The translations under genes and the position numbers were made by a program. Positions 9,864-51,505 of a stretch of 64,000 nt of DNA are shown here, in pieces; the stretch's first letter is position 1; every line of letters starts with the position of its first letter. The stretch spans positions 16,210,479-16,274,478 of the forward strand of contig NC_092872.1 of assembly GCF_028372415.1 (NCBI RefSeq). The letters run 5' to 3'. Below the pieces are notes generated by a model that was given only the letters and a program-made list of their open reading frames with translations, did no database searches and was not told where the DNA came from. The DNA is from Notamacropus eugenii. Its lineage: Eukaryota; Chordata; Mammalia; Diprotodontia; Macropodidae.

Positions 9864-10070
9864 CTTCTGCTCTGCAGGAGCATTCTGCTTTCTTTAAGTT
9901 CACCATGGAACACCTGCATTATAATTTGAGAAGTAGGTGCTATTTTGATCCTAATTTTACAGGTGAGCAAAATGAGGCAGACAGGAGTTAAGGCCAGGAT
10001 CACACAACTAGCAAGTGTCTAGAGACAGACTTGAACTGACTCCTGACTCCAGGCCTAGCACTTTATCAGG
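9864..10070 (-). mobile_element. Chimeric retroposon A: tRNA-type SINE fused to 28S rRNA sequence
   Basis: On the minus strand this reads as SINE sequence (10070 down to about 9929) and then 28S rRNA in sense orientation (about 9928 down to 9864). The 28S part matches the large-subunit segment around ACGCAGGTGTCC...GGGAG...GAGCAGAAG, with heavy C-to-T and G-to-A decay. The SINE part lacks roughly 9 bases between 'ttaag' and 'ccaggatcaca' that ordinary copies have. The same lesion, the same fusion point and the same odd bases ('ttttgatcct') occur in copy B at 12403-12860. It is inserted in the L2 LINE. Confidence 0.75.
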
Positions 10071-10145
10071 GTTTTCTAGGTTTTTTGTGACACTACTATT
10101 CCATGGTTCTTCCAATTGTCAGACTGCTCCTCAGTCTTGTTTGCT
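10071..10145 (+). mobile_element. L2-type LINE relic, continuation
   Basis: This continues the L2 text interrupted by chimera A: 'ttttttgtgacactactat' then 'gcagactgctcc'-like sequence and 'cagtcttgtttgctgg'. Confidence 0.65.
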
Positions 10146-10440
10146 GGAAGGGAGGAAAGAAAGGAGGGAAACAAACATTTATTAAGCACATACTATATGG
10201 CAGATTCTGTGCTAAGTACTTTACAAATAATATTTCATTTGATCCTTACAACAACCCTGAGAGGTAGGTGCTACTCTTATCCCCATTTTATAGCTGATGA
10301 TCCTGAGGCAGAGGTTAAGTGACTTGTCCAGGGTCACTCAGATACTAGGTGTCTGAGGCCAGATTTGAACTCAGGGATTTCCTAGTCCACATCCCATGCT
10401 CTATCTATGGCATTACTTAGTTATCTCCTGGTTTATCTCC
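10146..10440 (-). mobile_element. Antisense MIR-type SINE
   Basis: The reverse of a CORE SINE: 'ttattaagcacatactat', 'acaacaaccctgagaggta', 'ccccattttatagctgatg', 'gaggcagaggttaagtgac', 'ccagggtcactcagatac' and 'gccagatttgaactcaggg'. It is nearly full length and still has the 'tgacttgtcc' segment that is missing from chimeras A and B. Confidence 0.88.
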
Positions 10441-10740
10441 CTGCCTTCTCTCTCCCCACTGTAGTCCATTCTCCACTAAGCTGTCAAAATAATCTTTATA
10501 AAATGTAAATGAGACCATGTCACCCCATAATTGATAAAGTTCAGCTTCTTTATTGCTTCCCGGATCAAATACAAAACCATTTGACTTTTAAAGTCCTTCA
10601 AAGCCTTTGTACCTTTTGAGTCTCCTTACACTTTACCATGATATTGTACTTCTTGCTATCTTTTGCATATACCAATCCATCTTCAAATTCTGTGTCTTTT
10701 TACTGGCTGTCTCCCTTCCTTTCTCTTATCCCCTCCCCCT
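10441..10740 (+). mobile_element. L2-type LINE relic, 3' part
   Basis: The phrases 'gtcaaaataatctttataaa', 'gagaccatgtcacccc', 'cttctttattgcttcccgg' and 'ataccaatccatcttcaaat' follow the order of the 3' coding part of L2. This suggests that 9366-10740 is one L2 copy with a chimera and a MIR inserted. Confidence 0.65.
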
Positions 10741-10780
10741 CCTACTTCTATGTTGTTAAGATAGATTTTTATATCCCACT

Positions 10781-10802
10781 GAGTGTGTATGTGTGTGTGA
10801 GT

Positions 10803-10842
<40 letters not shown>
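10781..10842. repeat. (TG)n microsatellite
   Basis: A dinucleotide run broken by single TA and GA units, followed by a TC-rich tract to about 10895. Long open frames across it are artefacts of low complexity. Confidence 0.97.
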
Positions 10843-10844
<2 letters not shown>

Positions 10845-11059
10845 TCTTCTCCTCCCTTCCCCTTTTTCCCAGCACATCCCTCTCTCTCACCCCTTCATTT
10901 TTTTTTTAGATCATCTGACATAATCAACTCATATCCATGCTCTCTGTCTAGGAAGACTCCTTCTAAATGCCCTAAAAATGATTAAGGTTTTTGGAGTTAC
11001 CAGGTATCATCTCCCCATGTAGGGATGTAAATAGTTTAACCTTTTCAAATCCTTTATGA

Positions 11060-11995
11060 TGACTCTTTCGTATTTATCTATTTATGCTTCTTGAGTCTTG
11101 TGTTTGAATGTTACATTTTTTGTTTAGCTCTCGTCTTTTCATCAGGAATGCTGGGAAGTCCTCTATTTCATTGAGTCTCCATTTCTCCCCTTGAAAAATT
11201 ATTCTTAGTTTTGCTAGGTAGGTTATTTTTGGCTGACATCCAAGGTCCTTTGCTTCTGGAATATCATATTCTGAACCCTCCACTCATTTAATATGAAAGT
11301 TGCTAAATATAGTGGCATACCAAATGCAACTCCACAATATTTAAATTATTTCTTTCTGGCTGCTTGAAGTGTTTTCTCTTTGGCCTGAGTTTTCTGGAAT
11401 TTTGGTTATAATATTCCTAGGAATTTTCATTTTGGGGTCTCTCAGGAGGTGATTTTTAGGTTCTTTTAGTTTCTATTTTACCCTCTGCATCTAAAGATGT
11501 AAGGGCAATTTTCCTTTATAAATTCTTGAAAGATGATATCTAGGTTCTTTGATCATGGCTTTCAGGTAGTCCAACAATTCTTAAATTACCTTTTCCTCAA
11601 TCTACTTTCCAGTTCAGTTGTTTTCCCAAGGAGACAGTTCATGTTTACTTCTAATTTTTTCATTCTTTTGACTTTGTTTAATTGTTTTTTGCTGTCTCAT
11701 GGAATCATTGCCTGATTCTATTTTTTAAGGAATTATTTTCTTTAGTGAGCTTTTGGACCTCTTTCTCTTTGGTCAATTCTACTTTATAAAAATTCTTTTC
11801 TTCAGTGAATTTTGTACTTCCTTTCCATTTGGCCTATTGTGTTTTTTAAGGACTTTTTTTCCTTGAGGTAATATTTATACCTTTCACCGTTTGAGCAATT
11901 CTGTTTTTAAGATGCTATTCTGTTCACTGCCTTTTTTACCGTGCCACTTTCTTTGATAAAGAGGTTTGCTATCTATTTGTGATAGTTACTTTGAA
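11060..11995 (-). mobile_element. Antisense L1 ORF1 and 5' part
   Basis: The plus strand gives the reverse complement of an L1 ORF1 with its coiled coil: repeated 'ttttaaggaattattttc', 'ttcagtgaattttgtact' and 'ccatttggcctattgt' phrases (heptad-type repeats on the other strand). Before them come 'ggctgcttgaagtgttttct' and 'ctcaggaggtgatttttag'. It is L1-like by style and by the position of the coil-coding repeats. No frame is intact. Confidence 0.6.
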
Positions 11996-12074
11996 TAGCT
12001 GTCCTTTGGTAGAAAGGACCTGAGCTGATGACAGTAGGATAAGTGTCATCCAAAGGTGTCACTGAGTTATGATA

Positions 12075-12300
12075 AGAATATGTGTGTATATGTATGTAGG
12101 CATACATGCATGCATGCATTTATATATGTGTATATATTGGTATATACACATATATGTATATATGTGTTTATGTGTATATGTCAATATATATACATGTATA
12201 TGTATGTATATAATTCATTTTACTTGTTTATTTTTAATAATATTATATATAATATGTATATATATGTATATATATATATATATATATACATATATATATG
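12075..12300. repeat. TATG/TA-rich microsatellite cluster
   Basis: Alternating tatg, tgca and (ta)n units. The 60-80 codon open frames here are low-complexity artefacts rich in Y, I and C. Confidence 0.93.
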
Positions 12301-12402
12301 AAAAAGCCCACATATAATTCTAAGCCTATTTCCCTTTTGGAGATAAGAAGAAAGAGCAAATACCCAAGCACAACTCCCCATACAGGTGGAAATTGCAGTC
12401 TG

Positions 12403-12725
12403 CCCAGCTCACATTCCCTACTAGTAGATGAATAGTCCAATGCCTCCTGGATTGTTTCATAATAATAGGAAGAGCTGACACTGAAAGATCAAAGAGTGAT
12501 ATTATGAATGCTTGGCCCACCACCAGCCAGTTATCCTTGCAGTAACTTGCATTTCCTTCTTAAAACCTCAAAAGTCAAAAGTCAAAAGAATTGTGAGGTC
12601 CCACTTTCATGGTCTTATATTCATAATGAAAATCAAGAATAAACAAGCTTTTGCTCTTCTGCTCCACAGGAGGTTTCTGTTTTCTTTAAATTCACAACAG
12701 AATATCTGCATTATAATTTAACAAG
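12403..12725 (-). pseudogene. 28S rRNA-derived segment of chimeric retroposon B
   Basis: The plus strand is the reverse complement of about 320 bases of large-subunit rRNA (the conserved part just upstream of and including the peptidyl-transferase domain V region). Matches recalled from mammalian 28S, in order: 'cccagctcac.ttccctac', 'ataggaagagctgacac', 'gaatgcttggcc', 'agccagttatcc', 'cttaaaacc', 'catggtcttatattcat', 'gaaaatcaag', 'cttctgctccacaggagg'. The pattern of loss is mostly at CpG sites. It is not a functional rRNA gene: it is a fragment, it is diverged, and it is fused directly to SINE sequence at 12726. Confidence 0.87.
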
Positions 12726-12862
12726 TAGGTACTCTTTTGATCCTATTTTTACAACAGAGCAAATTGAGGCAGACAGGGGTTAAGTCCAGGATCACATAAC
12801 TAGCAAGTGTTTGAGGACAGATTAGAAAACAGCACTTTATCCACTGTGTCACCAAGTTGCAA
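12726..12862 (-). mobile_element. SINE head of chimeric retroposon B
   Basis: On the minus strand this begins with a tRNA-like head ('gcaacttggtgacacagtgg') and runs through 'cacttgctagttatgtgatc' straight into 28S sequence. It shares with chimera A the missing segment after 'ttaag', the phrase 'ccaggatcaca', 'aactagcaagtg' and 'ttttgatcct'. The fusion lies at 'acctactt', where both parent sequences contain CACCT. Flanks differ from those of chimera A. Confidence 0.78.
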
Positions 12863-29555: not shown

Positions 29556-31100
29556 AACCCCAGTGAGGAAATTCTTCTGATGCAAATTGGTACTTGTGTA
29601 GATTATAGCTTTAGAGACTTAACTGGGTGAGCCAAGAGCTTAAATGATTGTCCATCATAGATACAGACAGCTTGTTTCAGAGATAAGTCTTAATCCACAT
29701 CTTCTTGGCTCTAAGGCTGACTCTTTTTCCATACTTAGCCATAATGCCCTTCTGGATGTATGCCTATACCCACATTTTTGTGAAAAAAAAAAAAAGATTG
29801 ACATAATATTTCCATATATTTTCTTGACTGGCCAAGCCTGAATTTCATGTGGGCTATACTACCCTAATAATCAACAGAATGGTCCTAAATGTCAGACTTT
29901 CCTCAAACACTAAGTGGAAATGTGACAGTTCCCAAATATATACCATGTAACTCATACCAGGAGTTGCATGAATTTGAATGAAGTATTTAAATATCCCTTT
30001 TAAGAAGAAAATGGATTATATCTTTCAGAGTATGCAAAAAGATAACCTAAATATATTATTTATCATTGCAAACTTAAACCTTGGTGTGAGTAAGTGCATC
30101 AAAATGAACGTATCCTTTATGCTGAGGTTTTTCCTTCCCTTAGCTGTGCTTCCACATAGATAGAAAAAGGTTGTTCACATACTGAGAGTGAGGGGTCACC
30201 AAGCATGTCCTCAGTGGCATCCTGATTATATCTAGAAAAAATGAAGAAGAATGCCAGTGCTAAAGTTGTGACAGCACAAGAGTAGTAAGTGTTGATTGGG
30301 TGCAATCAGAATCGTTGGCGGGATTATCCACCTCAAACAGAGCTCTATTGGAGAATTTCAACAATTTCAGAGAATTTCTCCATTGGAGAAATTCAGAATT
30401 TCAGAATTTCATAGGACATAAGAACCAATGCAAATGGTAAAATTTCAAAGAAGATAATATCTCAAAGTTTGCTCTTTCTGTTGCCGGGTCTCATTGGCAC
30501 ATCCAGCTTTGTCCCAGGAAGCTCTGCTTTAATATACCTAACCCTATATTGTTAGAGGGAAAAGTGATCTATTATCTTCCTTGCCATCTACTAATACCTT
30601 AGAATTGAACTATTCCTGTCACATCTCATATACGGTGAACTGATAAGTCAGAATGTTTGCTGAACTTTGAGTTATTTTATTTTTTATTATTTGGATTAGT
30701 TTGCTCATATCTTTTTTGACAATTTTATGATGGGCAGTAAACTGAGACCTCTGCTCCACTGCTTTTAAGTGATTTGGAAAGCATTCACAAGTTCCTTTAG
30801 ATTAGCAGAGCAGCCAGGGTCACAAAGCTGAGCTGAGCTAGCTCAATCTTGTTTCCAGTTTCCTGCTGACATTTAGTCCCTAGAGGCTATTTTCAAAGCA
30901 GTGTCTAAAAATCAGATCTCGTAGGCTCAACTAAGCCATCCTTCAGGCAGTCTTTTGGCAACTGGTGCCTGGAGCAGGGATCAGAAAAAATATATTCAAA
31001 ATTATAGATTGAGACGTAGTTGCCATTACATACCTCCCCAGGCTGCATTCCTGACTTCCTCCACTGACAGAGCCACAGCTCTTCATCCTTAAGGCTCCCT
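29556..31100. other. No gene recognised
   Basis: 1.5 kb with no repeat or coding signature I can name. The segment 30340-30415 has a local duplication of 'ttggagaatttc' / 'cagaatttca' type units. Confidence 0.45.
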
Positions 31101-34392: not shown

Positions 34393-34710
34393 GGGCAGCT
34401 AGGTGGTACAGTGGATAGAGCACCAGTGCAGGAGTCAGGAGGACCTGAGTTCAAATCTCACCTCAGACACTTGACACGCACTAGCTGTGTGACCTTGGGC
34501 AAGTCACTTAACCCCAATTGCCTCATCCTGGGTCATCTCCAGTCATCCTGATGAATATCTGCTTACTGGATTCAGATGGCTCTGGAAGAGAAGTGAGGCT
34601 GGTGACCTGCACAGCCCTCCCTCACTCAAAAACAAAGTCAAGTGCAAATCATGTCATCATTTCTCTGATGGCGTGGGTTTCTTTGGCAATGAAGGATGAA
34701 CACACACACA
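34393..34710 (+). mobile_element. tRNA-derived marsupial SINE, full length
   Basis: It starts 'gggcagctaggtggtacagt' (A-box-like region), then 'ggagtcaggaggacctgag' and 'gttcaaatctcacctcag' (B-box-like), 'ccttgggcaagtcacttaac', 'gggtcatctccagtcatcc', 'ggctggtgacctgcacagc', ending 'ggcaatgaaggatgaacac' with a short CA run. It is the best-preserved copy of this family here, so probably among the youngest. Confidence 0.95.
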
Positions 34711-51189: not shown

Positions 51190-51505
51190 ACTGATATTAG
51201 GTGGTGCAGTGCGTAGAGCACCAGTGCAGGAGTCAGGAGGACCTGAGTTCAAATCTCACCTCAGACACTTGACACTTACTGGCTGTGTGATCTTGGGCAA
51301 GTCACTTAACCCCAATTGCCTTATCCTGGGTCATCTCCAGTCATCCTGATGAATATCTGGTCACTGGATTCAGATGACTCTGGAGGAGAAGTGAGGCTGG
51401 TGACCTGCACAGCCCTCCCTCACTCAAAATAAAGTCAAGTGCAGGTCATGTCATCATTTCTCTGACGGCATGGTCTTCTTTGACAGTGAAGGATGAACAC
51501 ACCAA
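51190..51505 (+). mobile_element. tRNA-derived marsupial SINE (34393 family)
   Basis: Head 'taggtggtgcagtgcgtaga' (first bases of the tRNA-like head missing), 'gcaggagtcaggaggacctg', tail to 'gacagtgaaggatgaacac'. It is close in sequence to the 34.4-kb copy. Confidence 0.93.

Follow-up and report, generated by a model that had tools for sequence, protein, structure and literature searches.

Two SINE/28S ribosomal RNA chimeras with one fusion point in Notamacropus eugenii: evidence for a single chimeric source

A stretch of 64,000 nucleotides (nt) of the Notamacropus eugenii genome (contig NC_092872.1, positions 16,210,479 to 16,274,478; hereafter the window) contains two loci at which a short interspersed element (SINE) of the transfer RNA (tRNA) type is joined to 28S ribosomal RNA (rRNA) at the same point. 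Both chimeras, copy A (10067-9864) and copy B (12862-12403), are read on the minus strand. The alignments strongly support that both go back to one chimeric source. The history that accounts best for the pair, to which we assign a probability of roughly 55%, is a single old chance fusion of SINE and 28S that decayed and from which an internal piece was then copied once, nearby, at the DNA level. An earlier note on this DNA had suggested instead a composite retroposon family. This proposal is not supported by two copies that lie close together on one strand, differ at their 3′ ends and share no tail.

In copy B, a tRNA/CORE-type SINE passes directly into 28S rRNA without a break. At gathering level, the Rfam model LSU_rRNA_eukarya (RF02543) finds two segments on the minus strand, 12390-12535 and 12559-12731. 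The region is also recovered as one collinear match (129.3 bits, E = 1.3e-32), with a low-confidence stretch reaching to 13000. Trimming by alignment retained the clear part, 12721-12403, and the span covered (about 2642-2961 of 3401 Rfam positions) lies in the interior of 28S. This part scores 696 against the Rfam consensus (shuffle maximum 190); aligned to a human 28S reference, it agrees at 243 positions and differs at 67, and of the 38 gap positions 19 form an end overhang. The SINE part is matched by a neighbouring unfused SINE, copy C (E = 5e-7), and forms row 12853-12719 (E = 1.7e-23) of an iterated SINE profile built from the window. The E-values of A and B in this profile are partly circular because both copies belong to it. 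Within the rRNA of copy B, the first 66 nt (12656-12721) are 70% identical to human 28S and the next four blocks 78-85%, a difference that may be due to chance. Beyond the 28S end, 103 nt of unassigned sequence (12300-12402) precede a (TA)-rich array at 12121-12299; with this interval between them, the array is not supported as a retroposon tail of copy B.

Copy A is shorter and its identification as rRNA leans on copy B. Its SINE part is matched by copy C (E = 3e-11) and enters the profile as row 10067-9925, beginning at profile position 13. On the copy C matches and the window profile, both A and B have the tRNA-type head followed by the CORE region. The head of copy A keeps GTTCAAGTC, which by eye resembles a box B; the corresponding motif in copy B looks degenerate. 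ARAGORN found no tRNA in the window. The rRNA part of copy A (9929-9864) gave no Rfam match up to E = 5 because 66 nt is too short. Aligned without gaps to the Rfam consensus, these 66 nt score 150, and the maximum among 1000 dinucleotide shuffles was 100. Counting against the rRNA identity of this piece, a tile scan of the window gave 158 for its tile and up to 160 for unrelated gapped tiles, so the assignment leans on B: over 72 nt, the stretch 12726-12385 of copy B is 82% identical to the copy A rRNA (E = 2e-15). The collinearity with 28S expected of an rRNA retrocopy is seen in B by Rfam and in A by the 66-nt alignment and via B, and the 28S assignment of the earlier note holds for both. 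The surroundings of copy A may be an L2 long interspersed element (LINE), to judge by L2 protein motifs; Pfam returned no family for four translated L2-like pieces around it.

That the two loci are joined at the same point is confirmed by an ungapped alignment of 173 nt spanning the junction, in which A and B are 83% identical (E = 3.7e-47). The junction had been placed at CACCT, and CACCT does stand just upstream in both parents. The crossover is better placed at a TCA that ends 8 nt past CACCT. Beyond CACCT, copy A is still SINE-like (CACCTACTTCTCA, vs CACCTACCTCTCA in copy C), and at the junction unfused copy C has CACCTACCTCTCAGGG where copy A has CACCTACTTCTCAAATT. From this likeness to C, the SINE extends to TCA in copy A. 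The 28S begins from TCAAA in the human reference or TTAAA in the Rfam consensus. Alignment with copy C and with 28S thus points to an overlap of about 3 nt between SINE and 28S at the crossover.

The changes common to the two copies carry the argument for common descent. At the 66 rRNA positions present in both, comparison with human 28S gives 14 changes common to A and B, 6 private to A, 6 private to B and no divergent double change. A recount with the Rfam consensus as reference again gives 14, 6 and 6; positions 6 and 8 leave the common set and positions 53 and 63 enter it. Outside CpG, 9 of 58 rRNA positions are changed in both copies, and each time A and B carry the same base; for the positions alone, the hypergeometric P is 0.001. 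In the SINE part, where the base most frequent in the remaining SINE rows of the window served as reference, 13 changes are common, 4 are private to A and 11 to B, and at 3 positions the two copies depart both from the reference and from one another. The earlier note had seen unusual bases common to the SINE parts and changes common to the rRNA parts, and this stands. The SINE deletion common to both copies, noticed there too, occurs in 2 of 33 spanning rows, A and B only; its length is 7 nt rather than about 9. A different 7-nt gap, in row 63974-63812, lies 6 columns upstream of it. The A-B distance is 0.19 (Kimura two-parameter), which ranks seventh closest among 585 SINE pairs, the six closer ones all falling within one younger group of four members. 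Differences between A and B affect 12 of 66 rRNA positions and 29 of 173 overall, i.e. the rRNA and the whole are similarly diverged, as a single copying event predicts. The shared junction, changes and deletion strongly support copying from a common chimeric source, as had been proposed.

Table 1. Positions in the window of the two chimeras, their crossover points and the unfused reference SINE.
Feature	Position	Strand	Description
Copy B, SINE part	12722..12862	-	tRNA-type head and CORE region; ends at ACCTACTT
Copy B, 28S rRNA part	12403..12721	-	same orientation as SINE; about 319 nt; ends ..GTGAGCTGGG
Copy A, SINE part	9930..10067	-	head shortened by about 12-19 nt at its start
Copy A, 28S rRNA part	9864..9929	-	about 66 nt only; alignment evidence, without Rfam detection
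Crossover in copy A	9927..9929	-	TCA, common to SINE and human 28S; TTA in Rfam consensus
Crossover equivalent in copy B	12719-12721	-	TTA
Copy C, unfused MIR-like SINE	10167..10430	-	reference for the SINE past the junction; outside the chimeras

The same counts bear on when the copies parted. By the aligned bases, 14 rRNA changes are placed before the split of A and B and 6 after it on each branch, and the alignments show substantial decay before the two parted. Among the 14 common rRNA changes, C>T or G>A accounts for 12 with the human reference and 9 with the Rfam reference, and the CpGs of either reference (4 human, 5 Rfam) are all lost in both copies. From this bias and the CpG loss we infer a long-silent, methylated locus. 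The decay pattern points to a chimera that had probably lost its activity by the time of the copying, and no function is indicated for it.

The ends and the position of the copies speak to how the second one arose. Copy A lies within a B-type chimera at both ends, being shorter at the SINE 5′ end (by 12-19 nt) and at the 28S 3′ end; the exception is about 18 nt of the head that A keeps and that appear as an internal gap in B in the A-B alignment. The 28S ends after 66 nt in A and after 319 nt in B, and the shared 3′ end that the earlier note had looked to is absent. Target-primed reverse transcription would be expected to give the members of a SINE family one 3′ end, and its lack disfavours the family reading. 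Homology stops inside the element and the flanks are unrelated, as a short local duplication would leave them: the best flank match between A and B is 22 nt (E = 0.37). The flanks were rightly said to differ, and a long block duplication was rightly dismissed on them; a short internal local copy, which had not been considered, fits better. No third copy was seen in the window, where at E 1e-3 the rRNA of B matches only A, and at gathering level Rfam finds only B.

Proximity points the same way. The copies lie on the same strand, 2792 nt apart from start to start. For a family scattered at random in a genome assumed to measure 3.3 Gb, the chance per copy of a same-strand neighbour that near is about 1e-4 to 1e-3 for 100-1000 copies (8e-4 at 1000) and 2e-2 at 30,000; the pair having been chosen for being a pair, these odds serve as a rough indication and not as a test. 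A family of 30,000 copies should figure among the abundant elements of the Tasmanian devil and wallaby listed in PMC3403934, and 0 of the 14 elements selected in that table are named for 28S. The term "rRNA" occurs 0 times in the main text of that paper, where a low-copy family would not appear. Searches of viral contigs (three patterns) and genome contigs (two patterns) for a vertebrate 28S reference, of a plasmid collection with the 28S part of B and of a phage collection with all of B gave no match; these collections are non-vertebrate and uninformative on copy number.

The proposed history may be set out in steps. A MIR-like SINE head with its CORE would have been joined to an internal 28S fragment in the same orientation, over about 3 nt of shared sequence, most likely when a LINE reverse transcriptase changed from one of the two RNA templates to the other, with fusion at the DNA level as another possible route. 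The fused product would then have been silent, probably methylated, and subject to decay. About 200 nt from its interior may at a later stage have been copied a few kilobases away at the DNA level, by templated insertion or short duplication, after which A and B both presumably went on decaying. The short-range DNA-level copying step is suggested by the two internal ends of A and by proximity. Several points weigh against this history. CpG losses can arise in parallel, and an active master element can also drift. Copy A could owe its ends to 5′ truncation of a tailless retrocopy that was primed internally, or to later deletions. The difference between the flanks of A and B requires that what was copied was a short stretch from the interior. 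In B, the initial 66 nt of 28S have diverged further (70% identity) than the four blocks that follow (78-85%). Finally, the lack of target duplications speaks for this history only weakly: a search of some 50 nt of flank, with 2 mismatches allowed, gave nothing above shuffle level (smallest p 0.8 for A, 0.31 for B), and the same test is blank at the ordinary SINE C (0.14).

The strongest competitor, clearly less probable than a single fusion followed by local copying, is a low-copy composite SINE. Here, LINE machinery would have reverse-transcribed RNA polymerase III transcripts of the chimera into two or more sites, leaving 3′ ends that vary because they are tailless and internally primed. 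The box-B-like motif kept in copy A (by eye) and the unrelated flanks of the two copies are what this would give. Precedents are human tailless retropseudogenes, 10 of which are reported to derive from 5′-truncated 28S (PMC5322556), and the 28S-headed MeloSINE (PMC4844689). Against it stand the lack of a common 3′ end or tail, the closeness of the pair on one strand and the prior loss of the CpGs in both copies, which would be unusual for an active master; no 28S-named element is among the 14 selected in PMC3403934, from which a low-copy family would be absent anyway. Its fuller form, rather unlikely, would be a low-copy marsupial family, so far unnamed, that template switching created from a MIR-like tRNA/CORE head and a body of internal 28S sequence, and whose LINE partner accepted variable 3′ ends. 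Less probable again is a birth at the DNA level, with a SINE inserted beside an old 28S pseudogene, or joined to it by a deletion, and the junction then locally duplicated, which departs from the preferred history in its first step only. The 3-nt overlap suits end joining too, and 28S-derived sequences lie scattered in the human genome (PMC6337102); yet the shared orientation mildly favours joining at the RNA level, 83% of the 28S/LINE-1 chimeras reported at 18 loci being in sense (PMC13174262). Two independent fusions at one point are effectively excluded by the 14 rRNA changes, the 13 SINE changes and the deletion common to A and B, and nothing was found in their favour.

The chimeras lie in a dense SINE landscape: the iterated profile, which includes A and B, contains 37 stretches of tRNA/CORE type in the 64 kilobases, the weakest two near E = 0.008. 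Copy C, the profile seed, gives row 10416-10232 (E = 2.3e-43). The parent of the SINE half is presumably a MIR/THER-1-like family. The younger group of four (34402-34526, 51200-51324, 39862-39740 and 2401-2490), whose members are 83-94% alike, resembles WSINE1 of Australian marsupials. Between the two chimeras, at 11715-11832, a 60-nt unit occurs in two tandem copies with 77% matches.

Chimeras of 28S and SINEs headed by 28S are already known, and a CORE-SINE head followed by a 28S body was not met among the papers listed by searches of the open-licence literature. The absence is weak evidence; the earlier note likewise named no such tRNA-SINE/28S fusion as known. The marsupial CORE-SINEs of MIR/THER-1 type (PMC3403934) are the likely parent of the SINE half, judging from alignment to copy C and the window rows; unlike them, the chimeras have the SINE tail replaced by 28S. 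The 28S/LINE-1 chimeras (PMC13174262), explained by template switching or RNA ligation, likewise combine a retroelement with a piece of 28S rRNA, which is 50-482 nt long (median 269) and for the most part in sense orientation. They differ in that the partner is LINE-1 with the 28S on its 5′ side, whereas here a SINE lies 5′ of the 28S. Together with the gain of a SINE head by template switching proposed in birds (PMC5729268), they provide a precedent for RNA-level template switching at birth.

Other systems share single features with the pair. SINE28, a mammalian 28S-derived element (Longo et al. 2015, as quoted in PMC6337102), is likewise a proposed SINE with 28S rRNA sequence; in the present case an internal 28S piece follows a tRNA/CORE SINE head. 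In the MeloSINE of the budgerigar (PMC4844689), 28S rRNA is also one module of a composite SINE. There it forms the head, with an AviRTE tail; in the chimeras it forms the body or 3′ part, with no LINE tail seen and no multi-copy family shown. Tailless retropseudogenes (Noll et al. 2015, PMC5322556) resemble the chimeras in the lack of poly(A), in internal truncation and in having 28S among their sources, but target duplications accompany the 2,402 chosen in that study, and here a weak test found none. If the family is real, it would be a SINE that swapped its LINE tail for ribosomal RNA, useful on the 3′ sequence needs of LINE enzymes. If the fusion was a single old accident, it would add one more case in which retroelement RNA and rRNA have recombined, with a partner and order not seen among the papers that the literature searches listed.
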